A stretch of 64,000 nucleotides of DNA, taken from positions 62,001-126,000 of the forward strand of contig CALUVT010000001.1 in NCBI GenBank assembly GCA_944324345.1, given 5' to 3'. Every line of letters starts with the position of its first letter. The stretch's first letter is position 1. Shown here piece by piece: positions 19,990 to 51,846 of the stretch. Source of the stretch: Candidatus Gastranaerophilales bacterium. Lineage in GTDB: Bacteria; Cyanobacteriota; Vampirovibrionia; Gastranaerophilales; Gastranaerophilaceae. The notes under the pieces were generated by a model, which made no database searches, had not been told where the DNA came from, and saw only the letters and a program-made list of their open reading frames with translations. The position numbers were made by a program, and so were the translations under genes.

Positions 19990-20104
19990 GGACTTTTGAA
20001 GTAAATAATGTCCGATTTGGCTTTAATAAGAGTAATTTGTGTTGGTATGTTACAAAAGTAGGAAAACAAGAACACTTTTCCGACTTCAGAGTTAATCTGT
20101 GTGT

Positions 20105-22084
20105 ATGGATGAATTTATTGGTATTAATGAAATAGCAAGAATAAAGGGCTTAAAAAGTACCCGTTCGATAAGACTTGCAATTAACCAAGGTAAATATATT
20201 GCAAGAGAAGTTGAAGTAAGAGGCGGAAAATCATATGAAATTCTTTATTCTTCATTAGAACAGGATATACAAGATAGATTAGATGAAGAAGAATTAAAAA
20301 CAACAGCAATTGTTCCGTTTGAAAACAAGGTGAATTTTGTATCAGAAAATGCAAGATTAACAGCACTTGCAAGAGTGGATATAGTAACTGCCTTGTATAA
20401 TATTCGTAAAAAATATTCGACTAAAAAAGAGGCTGATTCAGTATTTTTAGATTTATATAACAGCGGAATATATCTGCCACAAATATATAAGTTTGTTGGT
20501 TCAATTTCGATAGGAACACTTCATCGTTGGGCTAAGATGTTTGAAAATTATGGAACAGATGGGCTTTTACAAAAACGCAAAACTAATCAACAAGGTGAAT
20601 ATAATACGATTTTAAATGAGGAAATGAAACAGATATTTTTAAAATATTTGTTACACCCCAATAAATTTAGTATCGGAAAAGCTATAAATTTAACAAAACA
20701 TATTCTAGAAAAGCGAGGATATGAAAATATTCCTTGTAATCTAACATTCAGAAGATTTGCGGAGAATTTTAAGAAAAACAATTATTCAAAGTGGGTTTTA
20801 TTTAGAGAAGGTGAAAAAGCATATCACGATAAAATTGAACCGTATATAGAACGAGATATTTCTAAAATTGAAGTAGGAGATATTTTGATAGCTGATGGAC
20901 ATGTTCTTAATTTTCAAATAATTAATCCATTTACAGGAAAGCCGACCAGAGCAACTTTGGTCGGCTTTTTAGATTGGAAATCAACAGCATTAGTCGGATA
21001 TGAAATTATGATGAGTGAAAATACTCAATGCATAGCAAGTGCATTAAGAAATTCTATTTTAAATCTAGGCTTGATTCCTAAAGTAGTCTATCAAGATAAC
21101 GGAAAAGCATTTAAAGCAAAATATTTCCAAAATATAGATTTTGATGAAGCAGGATTTAATGGAATTTATGCAAAACTTGGAATAAAATCAGTTTTTGCAA
21201 AACCATATAATGCAAGAGCAAAAGTTATTGAAAGATTCTTCCTTGAATTTCAAGAAGAGTTTGAAAAAATGATGACAAGTTATATAGGAACAAGTATTGA
21301 AAATAAACCGGCTTGGATGAAACGAGGAGAAAAATTGCATAGAGAGATGCATAATAAGTTAACAAAAAACTATATTCCAACAATTCAAGAAACAATAAAA
21401 TTTATAGATTGCTGGCTCGATTACCATAATTCAAAACCTTGTCCTAATAACCGTTCAAAAACTATTCAAGAGATGTTAAATGATATTTCAAAAGAGAACA
21501 TTGATGAAAGTATTTTGAACGACCTTATGATGAAAACAGAAGCAAGGACAATAAATAAACATGGAATAACATTTCTTGGAATGCATTATAGGAGTGATTA
21601 TTTATTGGATTTAAGAGAAAAAGTATTTATAAAATACAGTTTGTTTGACCTTTCAAAAGTCCTTGTGTATTCAATAAAAGGTGAATTTTTATGTATCGCA
21701 AGACAAGTTGAAAAAGTTCATCCAATGGCAAATCATTTAGGAACAGTAAAAGATATGGAACAATTTAAGCAACAAATACAAAAACAGCAACGCAGATTTA
21801 AGAGAGTGAAAAAAGAGTTCTTAAAGTATTTCCCTAAAGAAAAAGCAGAAGCTATAGAGATTGAACAGGAAGAAGTTATTGAAATTGAAAAATTTGAACA
21901 GACTAAAACACCACTAAAACGCAAATTAAACTTTCGGGAACAGCAAATGAATGTTCCAGTATTTAACGCTGATTATGAAAAATATGAATGGTTAATGAAA
22001 TACGGTTGTACCAATCCTGAACAAAGAAAGTGGCTTGAGAGGTATTTAAATAGTGATGAATATAACAATTTATACGGAGCATAA
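20105..22084 (+). CDS. MuA/TnsB-like DDE transposase (first)
   Basis: 659 residues. An N-terminal Mu-type HTH (residues 1-60, FIGINEIARIKGLKS) is followed by a second HTH region and an rve-type catalytic core with D264 (ADGH), D331 (YQDNG) and E376 (VIERFF), then a Mu C-terminal-like barrel and a basic tail. It should cut and join the transposon ends. The ATG at 20105 is chosen over the GTG at 20099; no good ribosome site is visible. The gene ends 2 bases before the AAA ATPase gene. It is paralogous to the transposase at 49274, which lacks the first HTH. Confidence 0.88.
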   Translation: MDEFIGINEIARIKGLKSTRSIRLAINQGKYIAREVEVRGGKSYEILYSSLEQDIQDRLDEEELKTTAIVPFENKVNFVSENARLTALARVDIVTALYNIRKKYSTKKEADSVFLDLYNSGIYLPQIYKFVGSISIGTLHRWAKMFENYGTDGLLQKRKTNQQGEYNTILNEEMKQIFLKYLLHPNKFSIGKAINLTKHILEKRGYENIPCNLTFRRFAENFKKNNYSKWVLFREGEKAYHDKIEPYIERDISKIEVGDILIADGHVLNFQIINPFTGKPTRATLVGFLDWKSTALVGYEIMMSENTQCIASALRNSILNLGLIPKVVYQDNGKAFKAKYFQNIDFDEAGFNGIYAKLGIKSVFAKPYNARAKVIERFFLEFQEEFEKMMTSYIGTSIENKPAWMKRGEKLHREMHNKLTKNYIPTIQETIKFIDCWLDYHNSKPCPNNRSKTIQEMLNDISKENIDESILNDLMMKTEARTINKHGITFLGMHYRSDYLLDLREKVFIKYSLFDLSKVLVYSIKGEFLCIARQVEKVHPMANHLGTVKDMEQFKQQIQKQQRRFKRVKKEFLKYFPKEKAEAIEIEQEEVIEIEKFEQTKTPLKRKLNFREQQMNVPVFNADYEKYEWLMKYGCTNPEQRKWLERYLNSDEYNNLYGA

Positions 22085-23858: not shown

Positions 23859-25823
23859 ATGAAAGCAAAAGATACAACAAATATATGGATAAATATAGAA
23901 AAAGCCGCAGAAATTTTGGGGCTGAGTGTTCAAACGATTAAAAAACAATGCCGCAAAGGCTCTTTTGTGTTTAAAATTATCAAGCGAGGCAAGCAGTCGC
24001 ATTATTTTATTCACCTGAAATCACTTCCTGATTTTGCACAAGACAAATATCTCGGGGAAAATATTTCAGAGAAAAAATATTCAGAGGCTCCAAACTGGGC
24101 AAAGGAGCAGGCAGAAAAGTATTTTCCTATATTAAAAGCCACAAATGGTCTTAAAGGAGAAGCATTAAAAGATTTTATCAATAAATGGAACAATGAAAAT
24201 ACAGAAGAGCTACGCACTTCTTATTCGTCATTGATAAAAATGCGAAGAAGATTTTTCCGCTACGGTATAAGCGGTCTGTTATCTAAGCACGGACAACATT
24301 TAACAGGATCGACTGTCCCTGATAATTATTTTGAGTATTTTAAAAATCTCTATCTTGTTGAAGGTGCTCCATCACTTAGAACCTGCTGGGATTTAACTCT
24401 TGGTTATGCAATCAGAATGTTTGATGCAAAAAGAGAAACTTTCCCAAGTTTTATGGCGTTTAAACGCAGATTAGATAAAGAAATTCCAAAACAGAGTATT
24501 TATCTTGCACGAATGGGTGAAACAGCCTGGAACAGAAAATATGGCGGGTATATAGAAAGAGAATATTCAAATATTATCTGTAATGAGGTTTGGGTATCAG
24601 ATCACGCTCAAATTGATGTTGCCTGTTTCGATTCTGATAATAAAGTTGTATTTCCCTGGGTTACAGTATGGCGTGATTATAAATCAGGTAAATGGCTTGG
24701 TTGGATTTTACAGTCAGAGAATCCGAATTCTGACCATATTTTCCAGTCTTTTTATTATGCTGCTGAAAAGTACGGTTTGCCAAAAGATGTAATTATTGAT
24801 AACGGTAAAGATTATCGCTCAAAGGATTTTGCCGGCGGTCGCAAAACAATAAAAATAGCCGCAAATAAATCAAAAGCAATGTCTATGCTTGCAGAATTGA
24901 ATATAGATGTACATTTTGCACTTCCATATAATGCACAAACAAAACCCATAGAAAGAGATTTTTTAAAGATAAAAGAACTCCTTTCAAAACATTGCGTTGG
25001 ATACAGAGGTGGAAATGTTGTTGAAAGACCGGAGAAACTTGCAAAAGAAATTAAGTCTAGCAAAATAATGAGGTTTGAAGATTTTAAACAACTATTTGAT
25101 AACTATATACTAAACGTCTTAAATAAACGACCGTCGCAGGATAAAAATTTAAATGGTTTATGTCCGGATGAACTTTTTTATTCAGAGTTCAAAGAAAAAA
25201 TTACTACCTCAAAAGATGCACTAAAGTTATTTTGTATGAGAACTTCAAAAGATTTTACTATCAGAAGAAACGGGATAAAAGATACAGCACTTGGTATAAC
25301 TTATTGGGCTGATTGGATGATTTCAAAAATGGGATTGAGAGTATATTTACGCAGAGATATAGAAGATTACAAAGAAGCTTGGGCATTCAGATGCGATAAT
25401 GATGAATTTATAGGAACAGTGAATGCTGTAAAAGCTGTTGCTGCATTACATGCAGATAAAGTATCTAAAGAAGAATTTAAAGAAGCTATGTCTATTAAAA
25501 AACGCAATTTTAAGACCGCAAAATCCTATATTAAAAACACTATGGAAATTTCTCCACAAGAAAAATACGAGAACTACAAAGCCGCTTATAATAGTCTTGA
25601 AAAGGATTTTCAAGCGGATGTGAAAATTTCAAAAATAGCAAATACGAATATGGATAAAGCCGTAAGAAAAAAGAAAGAACAAAAAGCATCTGCCAATATT
25701 GATTTGTCAATATTTTTGCAGAAAGAAAATAAGCAAGAACAAGAACTTTACCTTTTTGAAACAGATAAAATCCTTGCACAAGAAGCTCTGCAGCAGGATA
25801 AAAGGATTAGAGGTTCATTATGA
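23859..25823 (+). CDS. MuA-like DDE transposase (second)
   Basis: 654 residues of a different subfamily from the gene at 20105. A Mu-type HTH (INIEKAAEILGLSVQTIKKQ) is followed by an rve core with acidic residues D248/D253 (SDHAQID), D314 (IIDNGK) and E365 (PIERDF), then a Mu C-terminal barrel and a coiled tail. Its stop overlaps the start of the HTH gene at 25820 by 4 bases. The second island has no counterpart, so this gene appears to be an insertion into, or an addition to, the ancestral module. Confidence 0.86.
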   Translation: MKAKDTTNIWINIEKAAEILGLSVQTIKKQCRKGSFVFKIIKRGKQSHYFIHLKSLPDFAQDKYLGENISEKKYSEAPNWAKEQAEKYFPILKATNGLKGEALKDFINKWNNENTEELRTSYSSLIKMRRRFFRYGISGLLSKHGQHLTGSTVPDNYFEYFKNLYLVEGAPSLRTCWDLTLGYAIRMFDAKRETFPSFMAFKRRLDKEIPKQSIYLARMGETAWNRKYGGYIEREYSNIICNEVWVSDHAQIDVACFDSDNKVVFPWVTVWRDYKSGKWLGWILQSENPNSDHIFQSFYYAAEKYGLPKDVIIDNGKDYRSKDFAGGRKTIKIAANKSKAMSMLAELNIDVHFALPYNAQTKPIERDFLKIKELLSKHCVGYRGGNVVERPEKLAKEIKSSKIMRFEDFKQLFDNYILNVLNKRPSQDKNLNGLCPDELFYSEFKEKITTSKDALKLFCMRTSKDFTIRRNGIKDTALGITYWADWMISKMGLRVYLRRDIEDYKEAWAFRCDNDEFIGTVNAVKAVAALHADKVSKEEFKEAMSIKKRNFKTAKSYIKNTMEISPQEKYENYKAAYNSLEKDFQADVKISKIANTNMDKAVRKKKEQKASANIDLSIFLQKENKQEQELYLFETDKILAQEALQQDKRIRGSL

Positions 25824-47948: not shown

Positions 47949-48302
47949 AATAGGTTTCTGGGACATTGAGACGGGGAAATTTTAATAAAAAATCAAACAG
48001 ACAGCACGATTGAGGCTGTTTTTTAGTATTGAGATGTATAGGTCTTTTCTTGCACTTAACTACTCAATTTTTGCACTCTTTTGCACTCCATTTGTAAATT
48101 TTTAAGACCACATTAGGCTAAAATCGCCTTGTTGTTTAAAGTTAAGCCCAGTGCAAGAGCGGATTGTCGGCAGAGGGCTGAAGCGAAGCGTGCCCGTTTA
48201 ACGCCGACAAACAAGAGAAGTGCAAAAAAGTGCAACTTTATTTTTACTTGTAAATTGAGATACACCAAATTATCAATAAGATTTGGATATTTACACAATT
48301 TT
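47949..48302 (+). repeat. ~300-bp direct repeat, copy R2, interrupted by a palindromic element
   Basis: Matches R1 from TAATAGGTTTCTG to CAATTT with scattered substitutions. It is longer only because 58 bp are inserted at 48158-48215. The iterons TTGCACT and AGTGCAA are conserved. R2 is followed by the caspase-like gene where R1 is followed by the antitoxin gene. Confidence 0.75.
48158..48215 (+). repeat. Palindromic element, copy A
   Basis: 58 bp beginning AGCGGATTGTCGGC and ending GCCGACAAACAAG. Stems: TTGTCGGC/GCCGACAA, and inside GGGC/GCCC with a GCGAAGC tip. R1 shows the uninterrupted sequence (GTGCAAG then AAAGTGC), so the insertion point is exact; CAAG is present at both borders of the insert. 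Confidence 0.8.
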
Positions 48303-49215: not shown

Positions 49216-49303
49216 TCTGTCTCAAAACAAGTGATGAATGTGTTGCACAAAGCATTACAAGGATTTTGAGACAATGGAAAACCACGTTGAGACAATTAAA
49301 TAC
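49216..49303. repeat. TTGAGACA repeats at the transposase start
   Basis: TGTCTCAAAA (49218-49227, inverted) and TTTTGAGACA (49264-49273) with TTGAGACAAT (49266-49275 and about 49290-49299) surround the transposase start codon. GACATTGAGACG also occurs in R1 and R2. They may be transposase sites, a left end or an autoregulatory operator. Confidence 0.45.
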
Positions 49304-51097
49304 ACCCCTGAGAAGGCAAAACAAAACGCTCTTGCAAAACTTGATTTAATCCGCAAATGGCAGGAGTTTCGCCGTAAAGCTGTCAACAAACTTCAAGCAG
49401 ACTATGATTTTGTCAAATTGCATAACAGTTCAAATTCTTATCTTTTCAATGTTTTAGGTAAAATTTCACGAGGAAGCCTGCATCGTTGGAAAGCATGTTT
49501 AGACGGGACAGAAGATTACACAAGGCTAATTCCTAATTACAAATACGTTTCTGTAAATGAATACAGAACCTGTCTAACGGATGAAGAAATCAAAATATTT
49601 ATGGGCTTGCTCCTACACCCTAATAGAATTTGTATCGGCAAAGCAATCGCACTTACAAAATACAAGCTCAAAGAGCAAGGTCAAAGTTTCATCCCTGCAG
49701 ATATTACATTCAGACGCTACGCAAAATGGTTTAAGGACAACAATTACGACAAATGGGTACTTGCAAGAGACGGTGAAAAAGCACTTTCAGACAAAGTCGA
49801 ACCTTATATTAAAAGGGACGCAAGCCTGCTTGATGTCGGGGATATTTTAGTCGCAGACGGTCACAAACTTGCGTTTCAAGTGATTAATCCGTTTACGGGC
49901 AAGCCTTGTCGGGCAACTTTAGTCGGATTTTTAGACTGGAAATCAACAGCACTGGTCGGTTATGAAATTATGCTTGAAGAAAATACCCAATGCATTGCAA
50001 GTGCCCTAAGAAACGCAATAATAAACCTCGATATGATACCTAAAATTGTCTATCAAGATAACGGCAGAGCATTTAGAGCAAAATACTTTACAGATGATAA
50101 AGGATTCGGAGAATTAGGCTTTTATGGGCTATATGCAAAACTCGGGATTGAAACGGTATTTGCAAGACCTTATAACGCAAGGTCAAAAGTTATTGAGAGG
50201 TTCTTTAAAGAATTTCAAGAAGGATTTGAAAAACTAATGCCAAGTTATGTCGGCTCATCAATTATCAACAAACCTGCATACTTGAAAAGAAATGAAAAAT
50301 TCCACTCCAACCTGCATAATGCCCTCTTGGTTGGCGGCGTTAAACGGGCACGCAGCGGAGCTGACTCCAGCCCTCTGCCGCCAATCCGCTACATCCCAAC
50401 AATAGAAGAAACAATCAAAATGATTGATATGTGGCTTAAGTTCAAGAATTCTCAATCCTGCACAAATGCACCTAATATGACAATCGCAGAAGTTTTAGAA
50501 AATCGCAAAAAGCAGAATATTGATAAAAGCTTGCTTGACGATTTGATGCTGGCAACAGAAGTCAAAACAATTCAGCGAAATGGTGTAAGGTTCTTAAACT
50601 GCGATTATTTTGACGAAAGATTATACGGGCTGAGAGGAAAAGTTTTAGTAAAATACAACCTGTTTGATCTAACAAGTGTAAAAGTTTTTACCCAGAAAGG
50701 CGAATACTTATGCACCGCAGAGCGAGTAACCGAAACCCACCCAATGGCAAAGATTTTAGGAACTGTTGAGGATTTAGAGGATTACAAACAAAAAATCCAA
50801 AAACAACAAAAACTGAAAAGAAAAACTATAAATTCGGTTAAAAAATTATTGACTAATGATGAAATAAAACTAATTGAAGCAAGGTCGAACCAAGAAGAAA
50901 TTGAAAATTCTAACAATTTTCACAAAGAGTTCAAGCCTCGTTCAAATGGTGTTCAAAAAATAAACAACGGAGAAAAGTCCCTCCCGATTTTCAAAAACAA
51001 TTCAGAAAAGTACGAATATTTGATAAAACATAACCCAAGCGACACTTGGATTGCAGAATTTAAACAAACAAAGGAGTACAAACTTTTATATGAATAG
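49274..51097 (+). CDS. MuA/TnsB-like DDE transposase with in-frame palindromic insertion
   Basis: 607 residues from the ATG at 49274. It is clearly homologous to the transposase at 20105 from its residue 90 onward, but lacks the N-terminal HTH of that protein. Catalytic residues are D195 (VADGH), D262 (YQDNG) and E308 (VIERFF). At about residues 350-372 it carries 18 extra residues (VGGVKRARSGADSSPLPPI) encoded by palindromic element B, placed between the core and the next helix. The stop codon TAG overlaps the first bases of element C. The insertion probably leaves the catalytic core intact. Confidence 0.85.
   Translation: MENHVETIKYTPEKAKQNALAKLDLIRKWQEFRRKAVNKLQADYDFVKLHNSSNSYLFNVLGKISRGSLHRWKACLDGTEDYTRLIPNYKYVSVNEYRTCLTDEEIKIFMGLLLHPNRICIGKAIALTKYKLKEQGQSFIPADITFRRYAKWFKDNNYDKWVLARDGEKALSDKVEPYIKRDASLLDVGDILVADGHKLAFQVINPFTGKPCRATLVGFLDWKSTALVGYEIMLEENTQCIASALRNAIINLDMIPKIVYQDNGRAFRAKYFTDDKGFGELGFYGLYAKLGIETVFARPYNARSKVIERFFKEFQEGFEKLMPSYVGSSIINKPAYLKRNEKFHSNLHNALLVGGVKRARSGADSSPLPPIRYIPTIEETIKMIDMWLKFKNSQSCTNAPNMTIAEVLENRKKQNIDKSLLDDLMLATEVKTIQRNGVRFLNCDYFDERLYGLRGKVLVKYNLFDLTSVKVFTQKGEYLCTAERVTETHPMAKILGTVEDLEDYKQKIQKQQKLKRKTINSVKKLLTNDEIKLIEARSNQEEIENSNNFHKEFKPRSNGVQKINNGEKSLPIFKNNSEKYEYLIKHNPSDTWIAEFKQTKEYKLLYE
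50326..50390 (-). repeat. Palindromic element, copy B (inside transposase gene)
   Basis: 65 bp in the opposite orientation to A, C and D: starts CTTGGTTGGCGGC, ends GCCGCCAATCCGCT. Stems are TTGGCGGC/GCCGCCAA, GGGC/GCCC and a GGAG/CTCC tip. It keeps the reading frame open. The paralogue at 20105 has only three codons at this site. Confidence 0.8.
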
Positions 51098-51155
51098 CGG
51101 ATTGAAAGCAGTGGGTCTAAGGCGAAGCCATACCCGTTTATTGCGAGCAACCAAG
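51096..51155 (+). repeat. Palindromic element, copy C (transposase-ATPase junction)
   Basis: 60 bp, AGCGGATTG...CAACCAAG. It shares its ends and the GTTTA segment with A, but the inner stem is GGGT/ACCC instead of GGGC/GCCC and the tip is GGC-GAA-GCC. Both changes keep pairing. It supplies the last bases of the transposase stop codon and separates the gene from the ATPase, which in the first transposon follows after 2 bases. Confidence 0.78.
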
Positions 51156-51165
51156 AAAGGATAAA

Positions 51166-51846
51166 ATGAAAAAAATCTTTATAAAAACTCGAAATGTAAG
51201 GAATTTTATAGGCTTAGTTGAAGCCCTGAAAAGCAAACCTAAAAACATTCCTAAAATGGGACTTATATATGGTGAGCCGGGGCTCGGAAAATCGCAAACG
51301 GCACTTTGGCTAGCCTGCAAGTATGATGGGATTTACATTCGAGCCTCAAACCTTATGACAAGCAGGTGGCTTGTTGAAGAAATCGTTAGGGAAATGGACG
51401 AACTTCCTCGGTATTTAACCTCAGACAACTTTAATGTCGTGATTAGCAAACTTATTCAAAAGCCAAAAATTATTTTTGTAGATGAAATCGACTACTTGAT
51501 GAACAATTACAAAAGTGTCGAGACCCTAAGAGATATCCACGATAAAACAGATTGCCCGATAATCTTTGTTGGAATGGGCTTGGCTCTTAGAAAACTTGAA
51601 AGATACAAGCACCTGTATGACAGATTTAGTGAGATTGTAAAGTTTGAGACCTTTGAAATAGAAGATTTAAGCCAGATTTTTAGCCAACTCTCTGAAATAC
51701 CATTTACCCCTGATTCGATAGAATATATCCACAAAAAATACAACAGGTTCAGACAAATAGTACAGCTTATAAGCAAACTTGAAACTATTGCAAAAGAAAA
51801 TGGTCTAACAGAAATTACATTTGAGATTATAAAGGAACTCGTATGA
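51166..51846 (+). CDS. TnsC/MuB-like AAA+ ATPase (second module)
   Basis: 226 residues with Walker A GEPGLGKSQ, Walker B IIFVDEIDYL and sensor GMGLALRKL. It aligns along its length with the ATPase at 22087. GAAAGG, just after element C, is its ribosome site. The stop TGA directly abuts element D. Expected role: ATP-dependent target binding and transposase activation. Confidence 0.88.
   Translation: MKKIFIKTRNVRNFIGLVEALKSKPKNIPKMGLIYGEPGLGKSQTALWLACKYDGIYIRASNLMTSRWLVEEIVREMDELPRYLTSDNFNVVISKLIQKPKIIFVDEIDYLMNNYKSVETLRDIHDKTDCPIIFVGMGLALRKLERYKHLYDRFSEIVKFETFEIEDLSQIFSQLSEIPFTPDSIEYIHKKYNRFRQIVQLISKLETIAKENGLTEITFEIIKELV

Follow-up and report, generated by a model that had tools for sequence, protein, structure and literature searches.

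A palindromic element seamlessly inserted in frame within a Mu-like transposase gene belongs to a dispersed repeat family of Gastranaerophilales

To our knowledge, "selfish" palindromes that lie in frame within protein-coding genes have long been regarded as almost peculiar to Rickettsia, and the agent of their movement has remained unidentified since their description in 2000. These Rickettsia palindromic elements (RPEs; Ogata et al. 2000, via PMC3767692 and PMC10969869) are described as being 100-150 bp long and present in Rickettsia and Wolbachia. Enterobacterial RU-1, RU-2, and RU-3, which are intragenic, MITE-like repeats of 103-168 bp, are a further published case (PMC2759123), and the opinion of the first-pass annotation that elements of this kind are known in Rickettsia and rare elsewhere was a fair one. 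The REP and REPIN sequences linked to RAYT transposases are shorter (REPs, 20-40 bp), carry a GTAG/CGTC tag, and are mostly extragenic (PMC3116915, PMC3733652).

The repeat described here works like the RPEs and is not a member of that family on the features tested, although RPE sequences were not aligned. Like the Rickettsia and Wolbachia palindromic elements, it is palindromic, dispersed, and present in frame in unrelated genes, to which it adds a peptide, and its mobilizer is unidentified; unlike RPEs, which are described as 100-150 bp long, its units are about 60-95 nt long with a conserved internal loop and a variable tip, its hosts are Gastranaerophilales rather than Rickettsiales, and it also sits in Mu-like transposase genes. 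It shares with RU elements the property of a small mobile repeat that keeps the frame open within genes, whereas the latter are longer, MITE-like, and found in another lineage (no sequences were compared). Short imperfect palindromes occurring singly or in pairs and in many copies are also typical of REPs and REPINs, but the new element lacks a conserved GTAG/CGTC tag, and the flank to the left of its GCGG is A-rich. Unlike MITEs, it leaves no duplicated target of at least 2 bp in pairs of filled and empty sites; insertion without target duplication is a feature shared with IS200/IS605-derived elements.

The window analyzed is a stretch of 64,000 nt from a Candidatus Gastranaerophilales bacterium (assembly GCA_944324345.1, contig CALUVT010000001.1, positions 62,001 to 126,000 of the forward strand). 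It contains a gene for a MuA-type transposase (DDE, phage Mu family) of 619 aa (positions 49238-51097, plus strand; PF09299, phrog_310), followed by a gene for a MuB-type AAA ATPase (51166-51846, plus strand; AAA_22/TniB, phrog_296). A phmmer search of the PDB with the MuA sequence produced no match; Foldseek, run with the second AlphaFold2 model of this protein, retrieved the Mu transpososome (4fcy) as the top PDB match. Of the three catalytic acids, D207 and D274 do not vary among the aligned homologues, and E320 is almost invariant. A paralogous MuA gene without the element (20099-22084, plus strand; open reading frame, PF09299, alignment A8) had served for comparison in the first-pass annotation, and a third, distant MuA-like gene lies 3' of this paralogue (23859-25820).

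The GC-rich, palindromic 66-nt element inside the MuA gene, denoted copy B (GCGGATTGGCGGCAGAGGGC...GCCCGTTTAACGCCGCCAACCAAGAG; 50324-50389, minus strand), starts at a codon boundary and encodes residues 363-384 (LLVGGVKRARSGADSSPLPPIR). The earlier proposal of an in-frame insertion within an intact transposase gene was confirmed, the reading frame being open across the insert and D207, D274, and E320 all present; the element had been placed at 50326-50390, and these limits are 1-2 bases off the exact unit. Three orthologues that are 87-91% identical to the window MuA (L011, L014, and L015) have the empty site, CATAATGATTAYATYCCC, in place of the filled CATAATGCC + 66 nt + TACATCCC. Compared to them, the protein gains 22 aa; the gain of 18 residues reported initially holds against the paralogue at 20099, but the loop of that paralogue has its own 4-aa extension. 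Next to copy B, GAT has become GCC in the window (AAC in L167), so that the adjoining residue is changed too. The first of the checks proposed at the outset was favorable: the filled site is restricted to a single transposase lineage, comprising the window, G023, G045, G124, L167, and L197, and the remaining MuA homologues have either the empty site or independent insertions. Because G045 represents a different family of the order, this distribution implies that the Mu-like element carrying copy B moved between lineages. In the absence of activity data, retention of transposase function after the insertion can only be inferred.

An initial AlphaFold2 model of the transposase, based on 17 sequences, reached a pLDDT of 55 and was discarded as inadequate. 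The model built with 30 homologues (mean pLDDT 68) places the insert in segment 363-383, a coil with pLDDT below 50 between helices 353-365 and 389-405. The second proposed check, whether the insert falls in a surface loop, was thus also favorable: the insert coincides with this low-confidence coil and is likely to form a surface-exposed disordered loop, the model being too weak for finer detail.

Four good copies of the element (A to D) were detected in the genome that contains the window, all within or near the same Mu-like island and only one of them coding. Copy A is intergenic, 5' of the transposase gene (48159-48217, plus strand; 87.6 bits against the R1 covariance model), with its end inferred from the family rule of a core plus 2 nt. 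Copy C occupies the MuA/MuB junction (51097-51157, plus strand; 72.2 bits); with its first G it supplies the last base of the MuA stop codon (TAG), and its 3' end (AAGAAAGGA) enters the apparent ribosome-binding site of MuB. Copy D is located at C1:138341-138400. Copy B itself scores 77.9 bits (E 4e-18), with the caveat that it was among the sequences from which the model was built. The third proposed check, a search for the same peptide in unrelated proteins, likewise came out favorably: related peptides (KADCEQRA...PFNASNQA and those of other frames) are embedded in unrelated proteins, though of sister genomes rather than this one. In other MuA families, the junction element forms a C-terminal extension of the protein, ADCEQRAENGN.EFSFV.PFNA.NQEGD. 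A repeat of about 95 bp with TGCACT motifs is found next to copies A and D (window:48060-48240, L003:1560-1660) and possibly represents the ends of the Mu-like element to which the transposase would bind.

When 58 related genomes were searched with a covariance model derived from copies A to D, matches were obtained in 43 of them, with up to 30 copies per genome. Across the family, the unit is a covarying hairpin of about 60-95 nt. In its outer part, GCGG pairs with CC..G across bulges; the P1 stem, TTGnnnGC/GCnnnCAA, in which part of nnn forms Watson-Crick or tandem GA/GA pairs, leads to the internal loop CAGA/GTTTAAY and then to P2 (GGG/CCC, GGC/GCC, or GAG/CTC), beyond which lies a variable terminal hairpin. 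Among 112 aligned copies (106 distinct), we counted 114 double-changed cells compared to 29 in shuffles and only 8 one-sided changes; none of 500 shuffles reached the observed covariation score, and slid controls collapsed. Many of the 112 copies were picked by an exact pattern, so that their sequence conservation partly results from selection; the 45 copies of alignment A3, mostly found by the model, display the same covariation. Single-sequence folding energy was dropped as proof of structure, with z-scores of approximately -1.5 to +1.5 for most copies. Because the value for copy B alone is likewise unremarkable (z about -1.5), the case for the palindrome rests on repetition, covariation, and empty sites, and the strongest independent support for its not being a chance palindrome is the covariation in 106 distinct relatives. 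Pairing in RNA would be expected to leave more G-U intermediates, and the near-absence of G-U and one-sided changes hints, without proving it, that the pairing is important at the DNA level. A search against Rfam 15 yielded no match at any element tested.

Pairs of filled and empty sites define the unit as GCGG...CCAAG plus two bases, mostly CA, inserted with no target loss and with at most one ambiguous base pair of target duplication. Some copies fit the core plus one base better, and in some the boundaries vary by 1-2 nt. The cleanest pair is that of the PcrA gene, in which the empty GAAGCTGAAAT corresponds to GAA + 78-nt unit + GCTGAAAT, with a seamless junction. The flanks show a preference for AA before and G after the element (target approximately AA^G). 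Three copies of 93 nt are arranged head to tail without a spacer at L282:963-1242 (G093:C4); this array repeats exactly GCGG...CCAAGCA, the same kind of unit. In the same genome, G093, a larger composite repeat includes the element as well, and in G023, BIME-like pairs with opposite orientations about 12 bp apart are present at L092:3285-3454 and L093:2738-2909. No long autonomous version, that is, unpaired half-elements flanking a gene, was found in the loci examined.

As far as sampled, the element looks confined to the order Gastranaerophilales. In an even sample of the phylum, 77 of the 85 genomes belonging to the same family contained copies, whereas none were present in the 3 genomes from another family of the class or in approximately 106 further genomes, in all about 109 genomes of other families or classes of Cyanobacteriota; the model search of relatives also detected the element in further families of the order. 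Scanning species genomes with a sequence pattern yielded at least 115 stretches. Among the matches listed, informative titles mostly name Gastranaerophilales or Melainabacteria, and a few name other groups, possibly due to mislabeled metagenome bins; most of the homologous genomes are metagenome assemblies. The open-access literature contains no description of the repeat in Gastranaerophilales or Melainabacteria that we could find, so, within that literature, the family is apparently undescribed.

Insertion into coding sequence is not limited to the transposase. Using a simple definition of open reading frames (at least 180 aa), we examined 194 distinct copies and obtained 30 in-frame candidates; L233 and L060 were removed because the recognizable pilin start is 3' of the insert, leaving 28 copies that correspond to about 22 independent events once homologous insertions are merged. 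By Pfam and NCBIfam names, the hosts include valyl-tRNA synthetase (ValS), PcrA helicase, B12-dependent ribonucleotide reductase, TsaB, asparaginase II, a GlmS/SIS protein, a GT9 glycosyltransferase (twice), a GH35 protein, a radical SAM protein, a PilZ protein, a poly(A) polymerase head-domain protein, and MuA; a probable tape-measure protein is our own reading, without a family match. Within MuA, at least five in-frame sites were identified: the loop preceding the ExGF motif (L151, L196), the N-terminus (L142), the HN/YIPT loop (the window copy and, in the opposite orientation, L208 and L107), the QEML/IDKN loop (L112, L202), and the C-terminal tail (several copies). Empty sites are known for MuA, ValS, PcrA, and NrdJ. 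Of the 28 in-frame copies, 22 have a unit length divisible by three, compared to 74 of the 164 others (Fisher P = 0.0009); counted by event, the figures are 18/24 versus 63/147 (P = 0.003). The in-frame set was found by demanding an open frame, and the evidence for frame selection therefore rests on this length comparison and on the empty sites. The ValS insert is common to five species of a genus, in two of which it has been shortened by 15 nt with the frame intact, and others have the empty site. The length enrichment and the retention in ValS point to ribosomes reading through the insert, as in RPEs, a conclusion drawn from sequence comparison without expression data. Because the genes are interrupted within recognized domains and are otherwise whole, their function is probably kept, although this too is an inference.

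Most candidates for disrupted genes look like artifacts of fused neighboring genes and were set aside. At L046:1501-1572, in a MuA homologue of G008, a 71-nt unit splits the gene out of frame near residue 286, likely a true frameshifting, disruptive insertion. In another species (L306, G009), the ValS position that the element occupies elsewhere holds a different in-frame insert (RHSEPMRSIANAQDDKC), and the GH35 protein in L184 contains a peptide, CHSEGFSPKNLSNSENK...RSFVSLRMTG; the two possibly belong to a second coding repeat family of the clade.

Several other explanations of copy B have to be considered. That the extra peptide is an ancestral transposase loop lost elsewhere, with the palindrome incidental, is hardly credible: the loop length at this position does vary by a few residues among homologues, but the additional DNA corresponds over its whole length to a dispersed repeat, the same loop received opposite-orientation copies in L208 and L107, and none of about 30 homologues lacking the DNA repeat has the peptide, whose presence in such a homologue was the observation singled out at the outset as capable of refuting the insertion. 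Alternatively, the element might not be translated at all, being cut from the mRNA or bypassed by ribosomes, like the mitochondrial bypassing elements that ribosomes skip, so that genes would tolerate any length. The presence of a structured hairpin inside conserved domains, such as the anticodon domain of ValS and the UvrD domain of PcrA, is what such a scenario could account for; nevertheless, we judge it very improbable, given that genic units are enriched for multiples of three and are stop-free and that the size changes in ValS are multiples of three as well, a pattern that neither mRNA removal nor bypass would need.

Another possibility is that the main role of the element is in cis, as a regulatory or structural part of Mu-like elements, for example at the MuA/MuB junction or the ends, the MuA copy being a by-product. 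Many of these elements do carry a copy at the MuA/MuB junction, often entering an apparent ribosome-binding site, and the probable island edges are close to copies A and D; but most copies are outside Mu-like genes, including in genomes where no MuA homologue was found, and they occur on both strands in essential host genes and intergenic DNA, which makes this explanation improbable. Also unlikely, if less easily dismissed, is derivation from REP/REPIN or IS200/IS605 elements with movement by a Y1 (HUH) transposase. The new element resembles IS200/IS605 chemistry in that it inserts seamlessly with no duplication, forms an imperfect hairpin, and favors an A-rich target, and Y1 genes (PF01797) are encoded in 13 of the 58 genomes. 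Against it stand the missing GTAG/CGTC tag, the absence of the element at all ten Y1 loci inspected, the existence of element-rich genomes with no detected Y1 gene, and the lack of a relationship between copy number and Y1 presence (P = 0.37).

The interpretation offered in the first-pass annotation is accordingly supported, and we consider it highly probable that copy B is a small non-autonomous mobile element that was inserted seamlessly, is read through, and adds a 22-residue loop. One unit of this family of 60-95 nt entered the gene for a Mu-like transposase with no target DNA duplicated or deleted; being divisible by three and free of stop codons in the frame it entered, it would allow the gene to be read through, with 22 residues added as a surface loop that is modeled with low confidence and is probably disordered. 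The comparisons show the insertion, its boundaries, the retained frame, the family, the covariation of the hairpin, and the taxonomic range, and it is by inference that we propose translation of the insert, function of the transposase, an intermediate of single-stranded DNA, and mobilization in trans. Insertion probably takes place at many positions, and those copies in coding sequence may persist mainly when their length is a multiple of three, the frame is open, and the spot tolerates a loop. Mu-like elements carrying copies would spread the element between species and families.

The absence of target changes on insertion, the covarying hairpin, and the tandem arrays suggest, by inference only, that movement proceeds through single-stranded DNA and depends on an enzyme acting in trans; two-sided pairing changes with almost no G-U would then reflect recognition of a folded single DNA strand by this enzyme. 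Integron attC sites are imperfect single-strand hairpins with bulges and a variable terminal structure that occur in tandem arrays and have GTTRRRY/RYYYAAC end boxes. The new element resembles them in its bulged imperfect hairpin, variable terminal structure, and tandem arrays, but it has neither these end boxes nor cassettes, and no integron integrase (TIGR02249) above the cut-off was detected in 56 genomes. Reverse transcriptases (RVT_1) are present in 18 of 56 genomes and do not track copy number (P = 0.50). No association with copy number thus pointed to Y1/RAYT, integron integrases, or reverse transcriptases as the resident mobilizer, a negative that for Y1 rests on gene presence and not on activity. 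Copy number is slightly higher where MuA homologues are present (P = 0.06), a trend that is compatible with carriage by Mu-like elements and provides no evidence of mobilization by them. Much more tentatively, and with considerable doubt, the family could represent a new class of minimal mobile DNA, a folded single strand moved by a recombinase outside the known mobilizers of short palindromes, rendered coding-compatible by selection, spread via the Mu-like elements it repeatedly invades, and adding loops to essential proteins.

A separate family that is abundant in gut relatives of Cyanobacteria, whose empty sites are exact and whose unit is defined, and which shows tandem arrays and a preferred target, makes testable both the movement of in-frame palindromes and the frequency with which new protein segments arise, and the inserts in the essential ValS, PcrA, and ribonucleotide reductase are natural experiments on loop tolerance.
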